From Blepharisma japonicum (lineage: Eukaryota; Ciliophora; Heterotrichea; Heterotrichida; Blepharismidae): a DNA stretch of 64,000 nucleotides. Both the position numbers and the translations under genes were made by a program. Shown piece by piece: positions 21,588 to 58,563 of the stretch; within the stretch, counting starts at the first letter, position 1; each line of letters begins with the position of its first letter. The stretch covers positions 342,115 through 406,114 of the forward strand of contig CATKHK010000039.1 of assembly GCA_949751835.1 (NCBI GenBank), given 5' to 3'. The notes under the pieces were generated by a model. The model ran no database searches. It had not been told where the DNA came from and worked only from the letters and a program-made list of their open reading frames with translations.

Positions 21588-22901
21588 TTATAGCGAAATT
21601 CCATCAAGGAACGACCTAATCATATGCCAGGCTTCAGGCCTTTTCCATTCTGGAATATTATGACCACCTCCTTTGACTGTAATAAAAGTAAGGCCTTCAT
21701 ACTCTATATAAAAGCCAGCTACTTGATCATCTACATACCAAGATGTATATTTTTGCTTTATTGGCAAATTTAGGCTGCTTATCCATTCTCTAGTGCCAAT
21801 AAATGGTGTTCCTCCATCACAGTCACCAGAATAAACCCAAATACGCAACCCTGCACGAATAAGGAACGGGAAAACATATAAAGACCCATGCACTAGGTCT
21901 TCAGTATAATCTAAAAATATGCAAAAAGCCCACGGAGGGATTGAATCTGGAATATTAAAAGCGATCCTTACAGTCTGGTTTAAAAAATACTGAAATGATC
22001 CTTCCCAGCCTGCACAAGGTGGAATTATACCACGGGGTGGGACAAAGCCATTCTGAGAAAAACAGTCTCCATAAATATTATAAAAATTCAAGTTACTGAG
22101 AAGGTTTAGCTGTATATAATCTGTGTCATTATTACACGCTTCACTATCCCAGTTATTGAAATTGTCGCAGTCTGCCACCAATTTGTTATACCATTCATAG
22201 TCAATTAACGCATGAGACCATAATAGTTTCATCAATCCTGGGGTAGAGTCGGTATTATCATCTACATAAGGGTTCCCTATAATGATTCCTTTTAAGTTGA
22301 TACTATTATGAGGACTATAGCTGTTGTACATAAGGATATTATAAGCTAAGGTCGGAACATAAATTCCTCCATAGCTTTCTCCTGATATATAAAATTCATG
22401 ATTTTTATATTCAGGGAATTTTCTGAAAAACTGTAAAACGGCTTGGAGGTTGTCATGGGCTGCGATTTCGTCGTCAGTGACATTGTTGGAAGAAGCTCCT
22501 AATAGAGACCAGCCAGTTCCAGCTGGGCTTTCAAGATAGATAACGCTAGCATTAGTGTTTCAGGATCATTGATTTTTTAGGAGAACGGTTGTTTCGTCGG
22601 TGAAGACGTAAGGACCATGCTCATAAACGAGGCCTGCCATGGATGAACACCCAGGGCCACCATTCATCCATAATATTAAAGGATCTGTTGCAGGATTATT
22701 TTGACTTTCGACAAGAACATAGTGCAATGATTTTCCGTCAGAGTTGGGAATATCAAGGTAGCCAGAGTATGTATCAAAACTAGGAGGATATTCGGCTGGA
22801 AGGCCAGGCTGGTTTTTTACTAAGTCTGCTAAAGGAGCACTAAATGCTATATTTATCAATATATATCCAGCAAGCCAATTAACAATTTTCTCACCTCCCA
22901 T
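21588..22901 (-). CDS. Serine carboxypeptidase (S10), copy 1
   Basis: 437 residues with two adjacent TGA codons read as Trp (NQWSWNTNA, near 22563). It has a probable signal peptide or anchor ([19 protein letters not shown]). S10 landmarks: [22 protein letters not shown], the nucleophile motif GESYGG, the [10 protein letters not shown] Asp region, and [15 protein letters not shown] with the catalytic His. Such enzymes remove C-terminal residues from peptides in acidic compartments. Compared with copy 2 it carries [11 protein letters not shown] in place of VKGAGHMVPQW, a change right at the His loop. The stop is 17 bp from the start of calcineurin B. Confidence 0.9.
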
Positions 22902-23011
22902 TATTGGTTACTATAAATTACCTGAAAATAGATACCCACATTAAATTATTTCTTCTAAAATATACAATTTCTACCCATATAAACTTTACCTCATATTTAT
23001 CTAAATATTAT

Positions 23012-24343
23012 TTAAGGCGAAACTCCAGATAGCCACGAATTGACCATATGCCATGCTTGAGGTCTTTTCCACTGTGGAACCATGTGCCCAGCTCCTTTGA
23101 CAGTCACCCATGTAAGTCCTTCATATTCAATATAATATCCTGCTACTTGTTCATCAACATACCAAGACGCATAAGGCTGTTTCACGTCCAAATTTAAGCT
23201 GTTTATCCACTGTCTTGTCCCTATAAATGGCACTGATCCATCAACATCTCCTGAATAGACCATAATTCGTAGTCCAGAACGTATCAAGAAAGGATACACA
23301 AAGATCGAGCCATGGAGGTAGTCATCTTGATAATTCAAATCCTGGCAAAATGTCCAATCTTGAACAGTATTAGGAATATTAAAAGCAGCTTTTACAGTTG
23401 CGTTTTGGAAATAATTATAAGCGCCTTCCCAAGCACAGCATGGAGGAATAATCCCCATGTTAGGGTTCATATCAAGTACAAACTTCAAATATCTGTTATT
23501 GTCTAATTGGGCTTGGGTGCCGTTATGGTAAATGCAAGTGCCATAGACGTCATAAATATTGATATTATTGAGAAGCACTCCTTCTATATATCCTACGTCA
23601 TTTTGACAAGCTTCACTACTCCACTCATTAAGGTTGTCACAGTCTGCTACCAATTTATCATACCACTCATAGCCAATAAGGGCATGAGTCCATGCCAGCT
23701 GCATAAAGGCAGGGGTTGTATCAACATTCCAATCGGTGCAACCATTACCTACAGCAATTCCTTTTAGGTTAATGCTGTTATGAGGACTGTAGTTGTTGTA
23801 CATAAGGACGTTATAAGCCAAAGTAGGCACGTAGATGCCTGCATAACTTTCCCCTGAAATGTAAAAATCGTGGTATCTGTATTCAGGGAATTTTCTGAAA
23901 AATTGTAAAATTGCCTGAAGGTTGTCGTGAGCTGTGATTTCGTCGTCAGTGTTGTTGTTAGACAGGTCGCCCATTATGGACCAGCCAACGCCTGCTGGGG
24001 CTTCGAGGTATAAAACACTTGCATTTGTGTTCCAAGACCATTGATTCCTGAAAAGAGTGGTGCCTTCGTCTGGGAATACATAAGGGCCGTGCTCGTAGAT
24101 AAAGCCGTCAAGTGAGGAACACCCTGGGCCACCATTGAGCCATAGTAGCAAAGGGTCTGTTGCTGGATTATTTTGGCTTTCAACAAGAATGTAATGCAAG
24201 GATTTCCCATTTGAGTTGGGGATGTCAAGATAGCCAGAATATGTATCAAAATTAGGCACATCTGGAAGCATTGGCTGATTTTTTACTAAGTCAGCTAAAG
24301 GTGCACTTAAGGCTGTCCCTATTAAGAGGAGGTGAACCCACAT
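23012..24343 (-). CDS. Serine carboxypeptidase (S10), copy 2
   Basis: 443 residues, no in-frame TGA. It begins with a signal peptide (MWVHLLLIGTALSAPLAD). Motifs: [11 protein letters not shown] near residue 67, YLEAPAGVGWS near 112, nucleophile S166 in GESYAG, the YSGDVDGSVP Asp region, and H420 in GAGHMVPQW. These are the full catalytic set of family S10, so it should be active in a lysosome/digestive vacuole or be secreted. It is a clear tandem duplicate of the gene at 21588 (shared start [11 protein letters not shown], shared C-terminal RSG/RAGLRI-VYSGD block), 110 bp apart on the same strand. Confidence 0.95.
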   Translation of the reverse strand: MWVHLLLIGTALSAPLADLVKNQPMLPDVPNFDTYSGYLDIPNSNGKSLHYILVESQNNPATDPLLLWLNGGPGCSSLDGFIYEHGPYVFPDEGTTLFRNQWSWNTNASVLYLEAPAGVGWSIMGDLSNNNTDDEITAHDNLQAILQFFRKFPEYRYHDFYISGESYAGIYVPTLAYNVLMYNNYSPHNSINLKGIAVGNGCTDWNVDTTPAFMQLAWTHALIGYEWYDKLVADCDNLNEWSSEACQNDVGYIEGVLLNNINIYDVYGTCIYHNGTQAQLDNNRYLKFVLDMNPNMGIIPPCCAWEGAYNYFQNATVKAAFNIPNTVQDWTFCQDLNYQDDYLHGSIFVYPFLIRSGLRIMVYSGDVDGSVPFIGTRQWINSLNLDVKQPYASWYVDEQVAGYYIEYEGLTWVTVKGAGHMVPQWKRPQAWHMVNSWLSGVSP

Positions 24344-35909: not shown

Positions 35910-38264
35910 TTAGACTTTATCTACCATTATTCCTGACTGATGAAGCTTCATACTTCTTATTTTAGCTGCAAAATCAATTCCTTCTTCTGCATCATTGCAA
36001 CTTTTTGATAGCATAAAATCTAATGATTTCTCATGGTCTGCAAGCATAGAATTATTTCCAACGCTCAATGCTTTTCCATAATAAACAGATCTATTTAAAA
36101 TAGGACTTGAGCTGTGACTCATTGAGCGATCTTTAAAAGAATTCCCATAGCTTGCTGTCTCAACTTTCATTATTTTTTCTTCATCAATAGCACTATTATC
36201 TTTGCTTTGATTTTTCTTTATAGGGAATTTTAATATTTTCCTATCATAAAAGCATTCTTGAATTATATATAAAATCCCTCCTAAAAATCTCAGCAATAAA
36301 AGAAAAAACCCAGTAGCCGCCATTGCAAATACGTAGCCTTCTCCTTTCTTGTTTTTATTTAAAAAATTCAATGCATAGGCAAACCCAGCATTTGTGAAAA
36401 CCCAAATCATTAGCCAATAAGTCCTGAAAATTTTAAAATCTTCTTCATTTTCTTTTTCTTTTTCAGTTGGGTTATCTGGTCTTGTGCCCCATGTGCAGTC
36501 ATGTAAGTTACACATTGCATGCATAAGGAAAACATTGACATACGTAGGGGTTAAAAATATATATTGAGCAATGCCTCTAAAAATTGATTTAAATGACCAA
36601 TTAATAGTGATATTTATAATAAAAGTAGCAGCTGTAAGAACAGATAAGATATAAACCCATGTTGAAAAAAATTCGTGGTCATTAAAATACATTACTATCA
36701 AAGCCATTATAAAAATCATATAAATTCCATAAATAGTGGTGAAAGCATATAATAGTCCTGGAATTTTTTGAGGTTTTGTGCCAAGAGAAGTTAATAAGGT
36801 CATTAGCAAAATAGACATATAGACTATTATGATTACGTTTTGTGGGGTAAATAAATTACTCTCACTATTTACTGAAGAGTCGGGGATGTTTCTTACTGTA
36901 AAAGCAAATACAAGGAAAAAGGAGCCTATAAGAAACCACTGGAAGACGGTTGTTACTCCAATATATAGCAATTGAAGAAAGAATATAAATTTTCTAAATC
37001 AATGATGGTTTGATAGGAAAATCTTTTCAAAACTGCTGAAAAAATGCAACACTGCAAACCATGAGCCATTAATCCATCTCCTTCTTTGAGAGATTAGTCC
37101 TCCTAAAGTATCTGGAGCATCAGTTTCTGCAATAGCTCTTCTTATGTATCTTAGTAAATAGCTTTTTTGTGGTTTCGCAATTTTTTTCGATACTAAAGAG
37201 AGACATAAAACCCTGTCCTCAGCCAAATATACATTTGACTCGTAAGGGTTCATTAGATCGGGCTTCAATAATGGCTTAAAATAATCTTCTTCTATTGGTG
37301 GGCCTTGCAATGCTTCCCACCTATACGCACTAAATGCCCCTGGAAGTACCGAAACATATCCAAATATGCTTTCAAAACTTTTTTCAAAAGTATGCGAAAA
37401 CTTATACTCCACAATCTGTGCATTTACTACCAAATTTTTCCACCCTGTATAAATAGGCACAATTTCCCCACAACACCCTGCTATTCGTTCATCATTTAGC
37501 ATTGCTTGATATAAGTAAACCAAAGCATTTTCATTAGGAATAGTCCCAACATCTAAAAATTGGATAAATTTAGGATCAATCATTTTACAGAAACCGTGTA
37601 AAAACCAGAAATGGGAATTTAATTTTCGCCTATTTTCTTGTTTTATGCAAAATATTAATTGTAGTTCTTCATCTGGGTTTTCAGAAAATGCAAAATTTTG
37701 AGTAAATGCATGGGCAAACTCATCATTATTGGTTTGGCCAGAAAATCTGCAGTTCGATAAGTCATCATCAGCTAATGGAAATGCTTTTTTAATTGCTTCA
37801 AAATTAAAAAATTTACTTTTAGACTTTGAATTATCTTCATCCTGATTATGAGCATCTTTATGCTTGGAGTAAAAGGCTTTCAAACCATCTGCTATTACTA
37901 CACATGCAAGATTAATAGGCTCAACCCTTACCTTTTTAAGGTATTTAAAGTTTGAGATTATCCCTGAAAGCGTTTTTTCAAGCATTGAGAGATCTTCATT
38001 GTACATGGAGATGAAAATTAAAAATTTTGTCTCATTTTCTTTGCGTAATAAACTCGACAAAATATTGCTTTTAAATGAGTCGTTTGGGTTGATTGGGTCA
38101 AGTCCATCTGCTGTTATTAATTTAATATGCTTTAAATCGCCTTCTTCAGATTCCTCATATACCTTTTTCAGCCTTATTGGTTGATAAACAATTTTTCCAT
38201 CATCAATTTCTATAGAGCGATTCACTTCTTCTAATTCAATTGACGATAACTCTGAAATGTCCAT
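35910..38264 (-). CDS. Chitin synthase, copy 1
   Basis: 784 residues, with TGA at 36999-37001 as Trp in the NHHWFRKF segment. The family-2 glycosyltransferase core has the SMYNEDLSMLEKTL motif (about residue 86), VIADGLKAF, QFLDVGTIP, GCCGEI, the acceptor EDR at 349-351 (VYLAEDR), and QRRRW at 393-397, the processive chitin synthase signature. At least seven C-terminal transmembrane helices follow, with a conserved loop CTWGTRPDNP before the last ones. The C-terminus is Ser-rich and cytosolic. Chitin is known in walls and loricae of some heterotrichs; a cyst-wall role is inference. A paralogue lies 585 bp upstream. Confidence 0.9.
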
Positions 38265-38849
38265 TTTATATATGCAAAACTATAAAAAGTATAGAAGGAT
38301 TTGAATAATATAATTATTTCAGAGCTTATCCTGATGCCTTAAATCTGCTAGGGTTTCCATTATATGATTCTTATAGTAGCTTTATACAAAAATATAAGGT
38401 TCTGGTATTTTAGAAAACCCTGAAACTATGATTATTATATACTCTTTGTCAAAAGTGCCTTACCATATTTGATAATACTTAATGCATTCAAAATGAGAGA
38501 TTATGGAATAACTCTATAATTGTTCGAAACAAACCATTTAGCTGCGCATTGAGATTTTAAGCTTTAAGTCATTTAATCAAATTATTTTTAATTTCAATTT
38601 TATAAAGAGTTTATTCAATTATAACCCAAGATTGAATAAAATAATTTTAAAGCTCAAGCTTTAAAGATCCATTCAAGGAATAAAAAGAAGTATGTGAAAA
38701 TTAAGCAAAAGTAAATTACAAAGGTATTCTTCTATGTTAATTTTAGAAATGACTAGTTCATTTATGATGGAATTATTTTATTGAAACTATGAATAGTAAG
38801 ATTTATATTATTTTCAATCAATAAAAAAATTAATTAAATATTTTCCAAT
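38265..38849. other. Spacer between chitin synthase copies
   Basis: 585 nt of AT-rich DNA. It separates two direct tandem copies. No gene recognised. Confidence 0.5.
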
Positions 38850-41177
38850 TTAGACTCTGTATATCATAATTCCAGACTGATAAAGCTTAATTTTTTTTAT
38901 TTTGCTATCAAAATCAATTCCTTCTTCAACATTGCAGCTTTTTGATATAAAAGACTCCAATGATTTTTCATGAACTGAATCATCTCCATCACTATATGCT
39001 TTCAAACAATTATTAGGCCTATTCACTATAGGATTTGAGCTCTGGCTCAATGGGCCATCCGCAAATGAAGGGCCATAACTTAATGAATCAGTCTTCAAAA
39101 TCTTTTCTTCATCAACTACATCTGGGCTAAAATTGCTATTTTCTTTCTTAGTTAATGATTTTATATCGTAAAACCATTCTTGGATGATGTATATAATTCC
39201 TCCCAAAAACCTAAGCAATAAAATAAAAAACCCAGCAGCCGCTATTGCATATATATAACTTTCTCCTTTATTATTTTTGTGTAAAAAGTTCAAGCCATAC
39301 GCATAGCCTGTATTTGTAAATACCCAAATCATTAGCCAATTAGTCCTAAAAATTTCAAAATCCTCTTCATTTTCTTTTTCCTTTTCAGTCGGGTTGTCTG
39401 GTCTGGTCCCCCACGTACAGTCATGTAAGTTGCACATCGCATGAATTAAAAAAATATTGATAAAAGTGGGCATTAAAAAGACATACTGAAAGATTCCTCT
39501 TAAAATTGATTTAAATGAACAATTGATAGTTATATTTATGATCAAAGCAGCAGCTGTCTGCATAACTAAGACACACACCCAGCTCATGAAAAAGTTATGA
39601 TCATATAAATACATTATAAACAAACCTATTTCAAATATCATATAAATTCCGTAAATAAAGGCGAAGGCGTATAGTAATCCTGAAATCTTTTGAGGCTTTG
39701 TGCCCAGAGAAGTTAATAGAGTCATCAGTAATATAGATGAATAAATGATTATTATGATGTTTTGAGCAGTAAATAAATCACTCTCACTATTTTCTGAGGA
39801 GTTTGGGAGATTTCTTACCGTAAATGCAAAAATAAGGAAGAAAGATCCAATAAGAAACCATTGAAAAACAGTTGTGATGCCGAAATATAGCAATTGAAGA
39901 AAGTATATAAATTTTCTAAATCAATGGTGATTAGACATGAAAATCTTTTCAAAGCTGGTAAAGAAATGCAGCAGGGCAAACCATGACCCATTAATTCATC
40001 TTCTTCTTTGAGAGATTAGATCTCCTAATGTATCTGGGACATCAGTTTCAGCTACTGATCTTTTGATATATCTAAGTAAATAGCTCTTTTTGGGCTTTGC
40101 AACTTTTTTGGATACTAAAGAGAGACATAAAACCCTGTCCTCAGCCAAATATACATTTGACTCATAAGGATTCATTTCTTCTGGCCTCATAATTGGTTTA
40201 AAATAATCTTCCTCAATAGGTTGACCTTGTAATGCTTCCCACCTATAAGCGCTAAATGCTCCTGAAAGCACCGAAACATACCCAAAAATGCTTTCAAAAC
40301 TTTTTTCAAAAGTATGTGAAAATTTATACTCCACAATCTGTGCATTTACTACCAAATTTTTCCACCCTGTATAAATAGGCTCAATTTCCCCACAACACCC
40401 TGCTATTCGTTCATCATTTAACATTGCTTGATATAAGTAAACCAAAGCTTTTTCATTAGGAATAGTCCCAACATCTAAAAATTGGACAAATTTAGGATTA
40501 ATCATTTTACAGAAACCATGTAAAAACCAAAATTGAGAATTTAATTTTCGCCTATTTTCTTGTTTTATGCAAAATATTAATTGTAGTTCTTCATCTGGGT
40601 TTTCAGGAAATGCAAAATTTTGAGTAAATGTATGGGCAAACTCATCATTATTGGTTTGGCCAGAAAACCTGCAGTTCGATAAGTCATCATCAGCTTGCGG
40701 GAATGTCTTTCTTATCTCTTCAAAATCAAAAAATCTGTTTTTTCTGCTATCCACTGCCATATTTTTATGCTTGGAGTAAAAGGCTTTCAAACCATCTGCT
40801 ATTACTACACATGCAATATTAGCAGGCTCGACTCCAATTTTTTCGAAATATTTGAAATTTTTCATAATCCCTGAAAGCGTTTTTTCAAGCATTGAGAGAT
40901 CTTCATTGTACATGGAGATGAAAATTAAAAATTTTGTCTCATTTTCTCTGTTTAATAAATTCAACAAAATATCACTATTAAACGAGCTGTCAAAACCAAT
41001 AGGCTCAATTCCATTAGCTGTTAATAATTTATTTTGCTTTACCTCACCTTCATTGGATTCTTCATACATTTTTTTCAATCTTATTGGCTGGTAAACTATT
41101 TTTCCAGCATCAATTTCTGTTGGCTGATCCAGCTGTTCTAATTCTCGTAATGATAGGACAGTCTCTTTCAACTCCAT
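38850..41177 (-). CDS. Chitin synthase, copy 2
   Basis: 775 residues, in-frame TGA used as Trp. In this copy the W of QRRRW (residue 394) is itself TGA at 39996-39998, whereas copy 1 has TGG there. Motifs match copy 1: SMYNEDLSMLEKTL, VIADGLKAF, QFLDVGTIP, VYLAEDRVLCL, QRRRW, CTWGTRPDNP and a similar Ser-rich C-terminus (SYGPSFADG versus SYGNSFKDR). The proteins are near-identical in the catalytic core and diverge at both ends, consistent with gene duplication. Both genes point the same way. Confidence 0.9.
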
Positions 41178-49215: not shown

Positions 49216-50001
49216 CTAATAAAATGGCAAATCAAAATTTTCTAATTTCATTGTGTTCAGATCAAATTTTATAATATAGGAGCGTCCATAAAAATACAAT
49301 GAATCCTTATAGAAAGCTTTATGCCCATATATGCAAAGATCTAAAGGGTTGTAATTTCTTATAAAATTTCAATTGAAAGGATTACTATTATCACTCTTAT
49401 ATATTTTCCCAGAAAAATCAACCAAATAAGCAGAATTTTCCCATTTGTAAAGGAATTTTGTTTTAGCTATTGCAAGTTCAAGTTGGCATGAAGATAAAGA
49501 CAAAGTTAATAAATCTAGCACAAAAATATCCTTATAATATAATCCTGAAATTAAAATCATTTCGTTGAATGGCATACAAATATGCGAATATGATCAGATA
49601 CTAAGCATTATTAGTTTTTCTCATCTCCAATTAATTAAATCAAATCTAGCAACAATCGCATCTCCACAAATATAAGCAAAATTATTATAATAAGTAGCAG
49701 AGCATTCCATATATATGTCTAGTGAAGGGAGCATTCTGACAGAATAATCTTTATCGATTATAAAATAAAATTTTTTTAGAGTTTCTCATTCAAAACTTCC
49801 ACAACAAAACATTTTATTATCTGGCAAAAGGCACATGCAAGATGCTTCATCAAGGTCTCTTTCGAGAATAATATTCTGAGTAGTTTTACTTCTGGATTCC
49901 AGATTAAATACATGGAGATCGCATGGTTGGCCTGAAAATCACATTAATTTTGATGTTTCAGTGTCTTGTCTCATTGGTGCTATATTTTCTAAAATTTTCA
50001 T
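49216..50001 (-). CDS. Short kelch-like protein
   Basis: 261 residues when TGA is Trp (at least six, for example KLMWFSG, FEWETL, NWRWEKL,  IWSYSH, NPFNWNF). The sequence reads as kelch-type beta blades: LPDNKMFCCG, SATYYNNFAYICG, FNEMILISGLYYKDIFVLDLLT, YKDSLYFYG, with a 40-50-residue repeat period. It lacks the N-terminal zinc finger and coiled coil found in the related gene at 57295, so it may be a 5'-truncated copy, or a short family member. Start ATG at 49999-50001, stop TAG at 49216. Kelch propellers bind other proteins; nothing more specific can be said. Confidence 0.6.
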
Positions 50002-52681: not shown

Positions 52682-55600
52682 TTATGCTTCCATTTTCTTT
52701 AATCCTTCAAGAGCTTCCATAATCCCATTCATTTTTGACTCAATTTTCCTTTCCATTTCATCCATTTTTTCATCCAATTTCTGCATTTTCTCATTTAAAA
52801 TTATTTGCCCTTTTACTATCTTCTCTCTATTTTCATTTAAACCTATTTGCACTTTTTCTTCCAATTTCCGCAGCTTTACATTTAAGCTTTCTTGCCCTTT
52901 TTCTACATTTTCTCCAATATTTTTTCATTCTTCGCTCATATTTGTTTTCATCTTAAAAACTTCTTCTTTATATCCATCTATTTTTAGCGAAATTTCTTTA
53001 ATTTTTCCTTGCCACTTATCAGATACATTACTATCTTGGAAAATATCGCATCTCTGAAGGTACAATAATTTTCTTTTTGAGTTTAATTTTGCAATATCTG
53101 ATCTCTTTCAAAACATAAGAGATTCAAATTCGATAACTAGCTGTAGCATTTCTTTAGAATTTAATTCATCAGCAATCATCTGAAATCTATCAAAAGTATC
53201 TCCTAATGTTGATACTAATAAATTGAGCATCATAACGACATTAATCAAAGAAGCCAATGTGAAGCATGAATATTGAAAAAAAGAGAAATCTTTGCTATCA
53301 AAATTGCCTATATTAAGCTCGTAAGTCATTGCCCAAGCATCACTAAAAGAAAGACTTGCATTAAGAGAAGCATAGAGAACTCCAAACGCTAGTGTGGAAT
53401 ACATGAAAATTATTAAAAACGCAAAAGAGTCATTAAGAGCCATCAAAATCAATCTAACATAAAATCTTGTAAAATCAAAAGCACGGAAATATGTCAAACC
53501 TCGGACAAAATTAAATAAAACAGCAGCAAAGGATAGTCACTGAATGTTTTCTTCATAAAATTCAAAAACTGCTCAAATAATAGCTAATGTGAAGCGTAGA
53601 AAATCAATCAAGTTTCATATGTCTGAGACATAATCTGCAGGCTTAGTAATAACTTGCAAAATTTCATAAAGGGCTAGGATTCCGTTTAAAGCTATAAAAA
53701 TGCTTAAAATATAGACATTAGAATTAAAGAGTTGTCATACCATTGCAATCAGATTAAGTCAAAAAATGGCCGAAATAGTAATTATAGCTACCCATAAATA
53801 ATTCCATTTTTCTCTTACTAGTGATTGCACGAATAAAGTTTGAAAAATAACTTGAGATTCACACTCATTCATTTTCTTTAAAAGCAGCAAACTTTCGTCA
53901 GACCCTGCTGTATAGTTATAGCCTAATGGGCTTCCCCAAAACTGAACTAGATTAGTTTTTTGCTTTCTAAAATTTTTGTTGGGAATATCAATATCTCTTG
54001 TAAAAGCACTTGCATAAATTTTAGGACTAGGGGAAAAAATAGTCATGGGTAGTTCTTCTGTAATTTCATAAAAGCCAATTAGATCTTTATCAGCTCTTCT
54101 CATAAATAAAAATTCTAAAAACTGAATTAAATATCGAGGTTTGACATTAAACAAAAGTGGTACATCATCACGCAGTTGATGAATACAATGCTGCAATTTT
54201 ATATCGTCATCTAAGTTGATAACATAATTAAGGATTTCATCAATGCATCTTCTTGAGCTTTTAATCAGTGCATATGATAATGGGCTCATGCTTTGCTGAT
54301 CTCTAAATATTATGGCTCCATCACTTAATGCAGTTGAGAGTAAATCCACACTATCAGTTATGCACAACGAATGTAAAACATTATATCCAATCGGATACAC
54401 AACTATTTCAAGGAATTGTTTATCTCATAGCTCTTTGGTTGGATCTTTAATCCAGTTGGCAAATCTCTGTCTCAAAATCTTATCATAATTGCCTGGAATG
54501 AAATAAGGATCGGAGTCAAGCCTGCTGCACTCTAAATAATTTTCTATATAAAGATACCCAGTGTTCGCTGTACTTTGAACAACAATGAATTTAGAATCGC
54601 CACTAAATTTTGCAGCATTTCATTTATAATTAGGAAGCTGAAATGCCGCCATAATTTTTTTTTCTTCACAATTTCAAAGCTTCACAAAATGGTTTGCATT
54701 TAGAATCGCTATATATTTATTGTCTTTTGTTATATCTAAGCTAACTATGCTGCAGCCATCATAAGTCTTTATAATGTCAATCTCTTTCATTTGGCTTAAA
54801 TCTCATAGTCTGATTTCATCAACCTGAGAAAAAATAAAAAAATTTTCGTCTTCACTTATTTCTAAACTAGAAATAGGAATTGAATGTTCGTCAATAGTAA
54901 TTATTTTTCTTCTTTCGTTAATGCTTCAAATCTCTATTCCATTTTCCATAAAAACCAAAACGCAATTGATGCTTTCGATTAATTTCAAAATTTTCACTTT
55001 TCTTTCCATTTGTATGCTTTGCATTAATTTTTTCTCTGAAAAGCTCCAAAAGCCTAAGTTTTGTTCATTATCTACTGAAATGATAAATGTATTTGTTTTA
55101 TTAATCTGCAAAAACCAAATACTATTTTCCTTTTCTGTGTCTTTTCCTGACTCCTCTAAAGGATCAATTTTACTATTATTTTGAATTTCAAAAGATTTTA
55201 TTTTTCCTCGGCAATTATTAACTACTAGGAAGCGGCTATCTTTACTAATTGAAAAGCATATTTTAATAATTTTATCTTCAACTGGAACTTGAAAAGAATT
55301 GACCAATTTCATATCCTGAAAAGAGTATACATGAATAGCTTTTGCATTTATATCATCAAATAAAAAATATTTATCATCATAAGAAATTTGTAAATCCAGC
55401 AAATCTTGTACTTGAAGATAAAAAATATATTTATTTTCAATGAAGCTTCATACTCTTATTATATCTCGATTATGCACCACTGCATATTTCCCATCCCTAG
55501 TCAATTTTAAGCGTATTTTTGAATAATCATAATAACCATAATAATCAATCTCATCGTGATTATTACAAAAAGGGACTATATAGTTTTCTTCTGTTTGCTT

Positions 55601-56803
55601 TTTTTCTTTATAAATTTGGTAAATTTTAATTTTTCCGTTTTCATGTATACAGGATAAATATTTTTCTTGATCAATTGCCAGCATATTAATGATTTTGCAT
55701 TCAATACCTTCCAGCATAACCATAGGAAATGATTTTGATAAGTCAAAAATTGTGACAGAGCCATTTTTGTGCCCGCAATAGATTAAATTGCTTCCTTTAG
55801 AGAGAGCAAAAGCTGTTACTGGATCCTTCAATTCTGATGAAGTCTTATTGTCAATATCATAAGTTCTTATCATACCTTCATCAGAATGAGCCCATACAAT
55901 TTGATTTCCACTAGTAAAGTCCATAATAGTAATGCCTTCTCTGAATGAAGTTGTCATATTTTTAATCACCTCTCTTGTATTAATATCTCATATGCTAATT
56001 CCTCCACCAAATGATTCAGCAGCTATGTATTTACTATCATCTGTTATCATAATTCTTGTAAGATAATGACCACTAGCTTCCCTCATTCCAAGATTTTGGC
56101 CATCTTGGACGCTCCAAATTATTAAATTGCCATCAAAGTCGCCTCCAACAAGAAATTCACCATTAGGAGAGCTCTTCATGCAACTGATTTCTGAATGATC
56201 GCCATTTAATGAGCTAACTTCATTTTCATTTCAGAAATTTCATTTTTTAATTAAACGATCTGTAAGAGCTCCAGAAAAAAGATGATAGCCAATAGTCACC
56301 TCTAAGCAAAGCATTTCTGTCTCCCCCTTAAAAACTCTTTCTTGCCGATAGTTTTCTAAATTTCATATAATTATTGTCCCATCTCTTGATGCTGAGACAA
56401 GAAAATCTTTTTTTGGGCAAACCTGAAGACAACTTACAAAGTTGCTGTGCCCTTTTAGAACAGCCTCTTCTTTAGTTTCTAAGTTATATATTTTAATAAT
56501 ACCGTCAATTCTGCCTATAGCAAGCTTACTAGCAAACGTAGTGGCGCATTTAATATCACAGTTTTTTCAAACTTGAGGATATGCATCGTCATAGTCAGCA
56601 CAAGTATAACGAAATTCTATGTCACTTGAGCCATCAAATTCAAAGGAATCATACTCAACTGATAGCTTTTCAATACTTTTTTCAAGATTAGCTAAAGGAT
56701 CGTAGGAATAATTTTCAGATTTTTGCCCTTCAACTTCTTTTTTTGTCAGTAATGGTTCAACAAGAGACATTAAATTATTATAAGGCTCTTTTAAAGTAGC
56801 CAA
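52682..56803 (-). CDS. WD40 / ankyrin-like / cation channel fusion with C-terminal coiled coil
   Basis: 1373 residues in a single exon, with many TGA Trp codons. Residues about 75-780 carry WD40-type blades (HSNFVSCLQVCPKKDFLVSA, SRDGTIIIWNLENYR, GGDFDGNLIIWSVQDG, HSDEGMIRTYDID, CGHKNGSVTIFDLSK), enough for two propellers. Residues about 800-890 look ankyrin-like (GYNVLHSLCITDSVDLLS). Residues about 995-1200 form six hydrophobic helices with a pore-like stretch (SFAFLIIFMYSTLAFGVLYA, then SDAWAMTYELNIGNFD) and a final helix with NVVMMLNLLVSTLGDTFDRF, as in TRP-type ion-transport proteins. Residues about 1285-1373 are a coiled coil (DEKMDEMERKIESKMNG). The fusion is uncommon outside ciliates. 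Calcium-linked signalling is inference. Confidence 0.8.
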
Positions 56804-57294: not shown

Positions 57295-58563
57295 ATGGAC
57301 TGTTGAAAACAAGGATGCAGCCAAAAATGTGAGTTCTTATGTCTGCATGGAGGGAGCCAAGTCTATTTATGCAATAATCACATTAATGAGCATCTTAATT
57401 CAGATACTAACATATGTCATGACATTGATGGACTTTTTGCCCAGCCAAATATCGATACAAAATTATCTCTCATTAGCTATCTTCAAAGCCTACTATCAAA
57501 CTCAGAACACTTGAAAAATCAATTGATTAGAGAAATGAGAGACAAAATTCAAGCAATTTCCTGCTTATATAGCCAGCAATTAAAAAAAATCAATGAAATT
57601 GAATGGCAATATCAACTAATAATTAAAAAACTTATACAAACTAAAGAAATCCCAAGGATTTCACCTAACAAGCTTGAAGGCCTATTAACATTGCCATCTA
57701 AAACCGCCCTGGAAAGATTCCAAAAATTTGAGAGCATAAACAAAGGAGTAAGACTTGGCCTAAGCCCTCATCACAAAGCTGAAATTTTCTTATTTAAGCA
57801 ATATTCACGAAATTTATTAAAATTATCCCTAGATAACCTACAAATTATCGTCCGCAATTTATCTGAATTAGAAACAACAATAGAAAGCCATATTTCTATA
57901 TGCAAGCTCCCTGATAATAAACTTTTTTGCTATGGGAACATTTGGCCAGATATTTCGAGTTCTTTATCTTCACCTAGGGGCACATCATTTATTATTAATG
58001 ATGATTTTTCTATCATTCCTTTAAAAGATGGGAAACCTCGAAGTGGAGCGACTTCTGTTTATTATGAAAATTCTATATATGTATTTGGGGGTTGAAGCAC
58101 AAAATTGCATATTATTGATAGAATTACGGATTCTGCTGATAAGTTTAATATGGAAAAAGGGGTTTGAGAAGCTTTAAATCGAATGCCTGAGCCGTCTATT
58201 TATGTATATACATTAGTTTACAATGATTTGATATTGCTTTCAGGATATAACCATCATAAGTTGTATTGCTATAATATTTTGGACAATGATTATTCAGAAC
58301 TTTTGGATTTGAGGGAAAAAAGCAATAAGGTGATTTTTGAATGAAATTACTGCTTATATGTGATGGAATCTGGAGGAGATATTTGGAAGAGCGATAATAA
58401 CATTTTGGAATGAAGAGCGCTTAGGAAATGTATTGAATTTGGAGAAGTTTTATCTTATCATACTACTTTCAAGTGGTCAATATTTTTCTTAGATAATAGC
58501 TATTGGCTTTATAAATTCAGACTTAGTAAAGAGAAGCTTGAAAAAGTGAAACAAATAATATAA
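57295..58563 (+). CDS. B-box-like / coiled-coil / kelch protein
   Basis: 422 residues, TGA as Trp at several places (MDCWKQGC, FGGWSTK, KGVWEAL, FEWNYC, ILEWRAL). The N-terminus has a Cys/His finger (C3, C8, C12, C16, H18, C26, H29, H33), like the one in the gene at 108-1964. A charged coiled coil covers about 70-200. Kelch blades follow (LPDNKLFCYGNI, SGATSVYYENSIYVFGG, YVYTLVYNDLILLSGY, YNILDNDYSELLDL). The track start of 57511 seen by a standard code is internal: the ATG at 57295 adds the zinc finger in frame. This architecture is common in heterotrich kelch families. It is the intact member of the local set. Confidence 0.85.

Follow-up and report, generated by a model that had tools for sequence, protein, structure and literature searches.

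The window analysed here is a stretch of 64,000 nucleotides in a genome of 45.2 Mb (224 contigs), and a single frame on its minus strand extends from 56803 to 52682. With the standard code this frame is interrupted by in-frame TGA; with TGA read as tryptophan it is open as far as the final TAA (52684-52682) and its first ATG lies at 56770, giving a gene of 1362 codons (52682..56770, minus strand), 18 of them TGA. The longest frame found under the same reading in 200 shuffles of the bases of the gene has 150 codons. The first-pass annotation had described a single frame of 1373 codons; its continuity holds when TGA encodes tryptophan, but that count includes 11 codons upstream of the ATG, and we place the gene on the minus strand with its start at 56770. 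Hidden introns of 15 nt were considered and rejected: three 15-mers of the form GTA...AG occur in the coding sequence, but there is no five-residue insertion relative to L002-L004. On either side of the gene are genes that appear by eye to be kelch-type (49216-50001, minus strand, and 57295-58563, plus strand), the second with a cysteine-rich N-terminus. Elsewhere in the window we noted two adjacent minus-strand genes that resemble serine carboxypeptidases by eye (21588-24343) and two similar adjacent genes that resemble chitin-synthase-type glycosyltransferases by eye (35910-41177).

Three units of the telomere repeat CCCTAACA have 168 exact matches in the genome, those listed lying near contig ends, and the reversed three-unit query has none in the same genome. 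Excerpts of the report on the 41 Mb genome of Blepharisma stoltei (PMC9942806) describe UGA as a tryptophan codon, introns of 15-16 bp, 66% AT and the same telomere repeat. Both the reading of TGA and the telomere matches agree with that account, supporting the proposed ciliate origin, and the source of the genome is taken to be the macronucleus of Blepharisma.

The protein matches many propeller models of Pfam (best 4e-44), the best stretches falling within residues 67-731 among the best 25 of 42 matches, and PF00400 (WD40) is matched at 6.1e-20. In a predicted model of residues 1-1200 (mean pLDDT 74, pTM 0.58), DSSP finds 16 repeats of strands a-b-c between residues 73 and 741; these are about 40 residues long, carry a tryptophan near the end of strand c and make up propeller blades, as WD40 repeats do. 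Repeats 1-8 (residues 73-385; 55616..56554, minus strand) would form a first propeller and repeats 9-16 (residues 419-741; 54548..55516, minus strand) a second. The Pfam matches and modelled repeats thus bear out the earlier proposal of about two WD40 propellers, the split into two rings being what we infer from the number of repeats and from the tandem propellers that Foldseek matches. The propellers come before S1, hydropathy reveals no signal-like stretch with them, and they should therefore be cytosolic, as are the N-termini of TRP channels. Expansion of WD40 domains in ciliates is nothing new in itself; WD40 is one of the seven domain classes that are commonest in species-specific Tetrahymena genes, according to passages of PMC6564038.

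The model predicted for residues 752-1362 (mean pLDDT 79.5, pTM 0.67) starts with pairs of ankyrin-like helices and beta strands, continues with six membrane helices and a pore helix, S6 and the TRP helix being continuous, and ends with a strand and a helix of 115 residues; Foldseek finds a TRPV-like fold in it over residues 758-1246. The pre-S1 helix and S1-S6 occupy residues 979-1195 (53186..53836, minus strand) and are seen by sequence, profile, model and fold, with a conserved YFR in S4 and the pattern N..M.NLL.S..GD in S6. Hydropathy gives peaks at S1, S2, S3, S5 and S6, with S4 below the cut-off, and three further peaks in the soluble parts. Between S5 and S6 the model has a pore helix, which together with the filter region covers residues 1142-1158 (53297..53347, minus strand; alignment and model) and ends in I-G-N-F-D. 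S6 and the TRP helix form one helix at positions 413-467 of the model (residues 1164-1218), and the TRP-like helix after S6 (residues 1196-1224; 53099..53185, minus strand) has E.E and W.R conserved in the alignment.

Searched by itself, the channel part of the gene matches no channel family of Pfam, Ion_trans included. With phmmer the gene finds TRPV3 at 4.6e-5 and TRPA1 at 0.0021, and chance matches such as ovalbumin (0.0033) stand just below TRPA1. The profile of its paralogues matches the TRPV channel Inactive (7.8e-13), TRPV3 (9.7e-13), TRPM8 (3.7e-8) and TRPA1 (6.1e-7); Ion_trans is found in 23 of 31 paralogues at E up to 1, and PKD_channel in 5 of 31. The six modelled membrane helices and pore helix, with these TRPV and TRPA1 matches, support the six-helix TRP-like channel that the first-pass annotation had proposed, and the fold prediction of the pore region that it had suggested as a check does give a channel pore.

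Less of what had been said about the two flanking elements stands. In the models the ankyrin-like stretch amounts to some three pairs of helices that separate the WD40 part from the linker. Its sequence signal is weak, Ank_2 matching 15 of 31 members at E up to 1 (best 0.0042), and TRPV channels have a longer stretch; with a TRPV-type linker containing beta strands, these shortened pairs occupy residues 785-985 (53816..54418, minus strand). The predicted C-terminal helix (residues 1247-1361; 52688..53032, minus strand) is amphipathic at a period of 3.6 in a Fourier test (none of 1000 shuffles was as strong), but its heptad signal is no better than that of shuffles (2157 of 5000), leaving the suggested coiled coil no more than plausible.

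At least 78 merged places in the same genome, on 52 contigs and including 13 neighbouring pairs within 16 kb, match the protein or one of two distant paralogues when three genome searches are combined with a 1500-base merge; a fourth search, outside the merge, gave overlapping places. We give the size of the family as about 75 loci in this genome because seven of the 78 have matches shorter than 1200 bases (L004, one of these, is nevertheless complete) and another, L010, is a fragment with WD40 repeats alone. The finding is larger than first described, a family of propeller-headed TRP channels. Open reading frames were read from 33 loci and then from three more, with L025-L030 replaced by the wider copies L031-L036; L010, which has no long frame, is in no alignment, L036 and L039 were excluded from profiles A1 and A2 (31 of 33 frames used), and L039 also from the tree (35 rows). 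PF00400 is matched in all 31 members scanned, and propellers were found in all seven scanned at full length. In the tree of 35 channel parts the gene falls within a clade of 11 with support of 100/100. Profile A1 gave five pattern matches and no relative in viral contigs, and profile A3 gave 21 pattern matches and no relative in the genome contigs collection.

When 16 full-length members are compared in pairs, identity averages 21% in the WD40 part, 30% in the ankyrin-linker, 31% in S1-S4 and 44% in S5-S6. K988 and W989 are invariant (33/33) in the alignment of 33 rows, R1096 is present in 31/33 and, in the TRP helix, E1207 in 31/33, E1216 in 32/33 and W1221 in 30/33; N1177 and N1183 occur in all 32 rows with residues there. 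In the pore, F1157 is shared by 29/33, G1155 by 27/33, and D or E at position 1158 by 23/33. Three members differ in extent. L039 (G000:C66:221243-222181) has an open frame that passes directly from S4 to a point shortly beyond S6, lacking S5, pore and S6, and is possibly a poreless subunit or an effect of assembly or deletion; L010 (G000:C41:103037-104272) is 45% identical to residues 93-520, contains four TAA and five TGA and looks like a decayed copy; and L036 (G000:C1:355500-363500) has 1776 residues, with a C-terminal extension that matches Apolipoprotein-like helices (residues 1325-1487, 2.2e-12).

That two genes, or an assembly artefact, have been taken for one is scarcely credible, since the WD40 and channel parts lie in the same frame in 31 of 31 paralogues scanned and their divergences correlate (Spearman 0.48 over 18 full-length members; none of 2000 permutations as high). 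The fusion of propellers and channel in one protein, as originally proposed, is upheld by the same two observations.

We assign the protein to the TRP superfamily on its six helices with a pore helix, its sequence relationship and its TRP helix continuous with S6. TRPV channels have six N-terminal ankyrin repeats; these are not found here, and we therefore do not class it as TRPV, although profile and fold scores alone would favour TRPV, with TRPA1 close. In fold and profile, S1-S6, the pore, the S6-TRP helix and the beta-strand linker resemble those of TRPV5, TRPV6, TRPV2, TRPV3 and Drosophila Nanchung-Inactive; YFR in S4 aligns with YTR of TRPV3, and NLLVSTLGDT in S6 with NMLIALMGET. Unlike in TRPV channels, a tandem WD40 propeller stands ahead of a shortened ankyrin stack, identity in fold alignments is only 11-16%, and the filter of most Blepharisma paralogues reads G-[DN]-F-[DEN]; unlike in TRPA1, WD40 repeats take the place of the long ankyrin array. 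Classical animal TRP channels have, to our knowledge, ankyrin repeats or other N-terminal parts rather than WD40 propellers. Searches of a library of open-access papers, one of them on Stentor and TRP channels, gave no description of a WD40-TRP or WD40-channel fusion. Portions of two surveys, one noting TRPV and TRPA in choanoflagellates (PMC11526382) and one listing roles of TRP channels in protists (PMC7935092), do not bring WD40 and TRP together in those portions. A TRP channel headed by propellers and maintained as dozens of paralogues would represent a new type of sensor.

We then compared evolutionary rates across the propellers and channel, with loop classes taken from the predicted model (mean pLDDT 74) and, for control trios, via a deep alignment. 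For the trio L001-L003, maximum likelihood gives omega of 0.79 for the top-face loops (2dlnL against 1: 0.92), 0.31 for the bottom loops, 0.56 for the strands, 0.20 for the ankyrin-linker and 0.13 for S1-S6; with L004 added, the top is at 0.71, the b-c turn at 1.17 and the d-a loop at 0.59. By NG86, three pairs of the clade of this gene have top values of 1.09-1.23, with bootstrap intervals that all include 1, against 0.37-0.40 for the bottom. Two other trios are lower at the top face: L035/L041a/L041b has 0.20 (bottom 0.12, S1-S6 0.15) and L014-L016 has 0.22 (bottom 0.05, S1-S6 0.08). Pairwise, L035/L041b, L015/L016, L035/L041a and L041a/L041b have 0.22-0.56 at the top against 0.11-0.21 at the bottom, but the contrast is nearly absent in L011/L012 (0.51 against 0.42) and reversed in L020/L042 (0.10 against 0.19).

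As omega at the top face does not differ from 1, relaxed constraint fits as well, and in this clade the top face is either free to change or being changed. It could be that the fast top face is mere relaxation after duplication and that the propellers of this clade are degenerate and bind no ligand; top-face values that do not differ from 1 and the decay seen in the fragment L010, with its four TAA, are in line with this. We regard it as unlikely, since bottom loops, strands and channel of L001-L003 are still constrained (2dlnL against 1 of 20 or more), so that the propeller fold is being kept. The rates were compared within channel-bearing members, and a fast top face could accompany any split of WD40 paralogues.

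Extracts of PMC1805685 describe diversifying selection in the recognition repeats of the fungal HET-D/HET-E proteins, at the d-a loop and b-c turn on the top of the propeller. Like these NLR-type proteins, the Blepharisma family is large and has a WD40 sensor whose changes fall mainly in the d-a and b-c loops; unlike them, its effector is a channel, its repeats are divergent and its top-face omega does not differ from 1. At HET-E-like positions, picked after a scan of 35 offsets and in the light of the same extracts, omega is 0.97 (2dlnL 0.01), with 0.50 over the remainder of the WD40 part, and neither NACHT nor NB-ARC is among the Pfam matches listed (best 25 of 42 for the full protein). That the roughly 75 loci encode intracellular NLR-like receptors, each a variable WD40 sensor fused to a calcium-permeable TRP effector with a top face diversifying by selection, is in our judgement improbable. 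If true, a recognition propeller would be joined directly to a calcium-permeable channel that raises the alarm.

The reading that we prefer, at a probability of about one half, is partner-gated cation entry. It builds on the one conserved frame, the domain order, the TRPV-like fold, the constrained pore, the large family and the faster top face, and extends from these to a tetrameric state, a cytosolic head, ligand binding, gating, ion type and a link between variation and different partners, all of which are presumptive. Four subunits of this kind would form a cation channel of the TRP superfamily with a cytosolic tandem WD40 head on each, and an intracellular partner protein or ligand would bind the propellers at their top face. 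From there the resulting change would travel through the shortened ankyrin stack and the TRPV-type linker and reach the TRP helix, which would open the S6 gate and let cations enter. The path from propeller through ankyrin-linker and TRP helix to S6 is conserved, and across the paralogues the channel would stay the same while the face of the propellers varies, each member thereby answering a different partner. An unconstrained propeller top face above a constrained channel is indirect support for coupling of protein binding to ion flow. The dozens of relatives in the genome suggest a large sensor set turning intracellular binding into an ion signal. With this family it becomes possible to ask by experiment if a TRP pore can be gated by a propeller.

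A different role for the propellers would be to tether the channel to microtubules or other cytoskeleton and gate it by force, akin to the ankyrin spring proposed for NOMPC. Among the fold matches of the full model are tandem-propeller proteins from the doublet microtubules of cilia (one of them Tetrahymena 8g2z), and EML propeller models of Pfam also match. The same tandem propeller fold is found in Utp21, Pwp2, WDR3 and Apaf-1, none of these listed fold matches being described as a channel, and ribosome-assembly tandem propellers match in Foldseek as well or better, so that the fold does not point to microtubules. Moreover, a tubulin-binding face should be conserved, yet the top face is the least constrained part in this clade, although another face could serve. 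Ciliates, Stentor among them, are known to have mechanoreceptor currents, according to sections of PMC3681921. We consider a tether possible but somewhat doubtful.

The propellers may instead be a scaffold for sorting or assembly, and the channel would then be gated as other TRP channels are, by voltage, lipid or heat. Scaffolding is a common function of WD40 domains and about 75 loci would need rules for sorting or assembly, but the assembly specificity of TRP channels usually lies in the ankyrin and C-terminal helices, and we think this role quite unlikely. The family would also supply many candidates for the sensory channels of heterotrichs.

The searches also revealed other channel sequences in the genome (G000). 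Dense arrays of Ion_trans matches at C16:129-146 kb and C71:204-226 kb, and also on C95, C26, C51, C159 and C6, are far stronger than those of the propeller-channel family and are probably tandem multi-domain voltage-gated channels. Two further Ion_trans matches (C91:116223-116882 and C48:185299-185958) contain in-frame TAG, odd for a code in which TGA is tryptophan; pseudogenes, introns or foreign contigs are candidate explanations.
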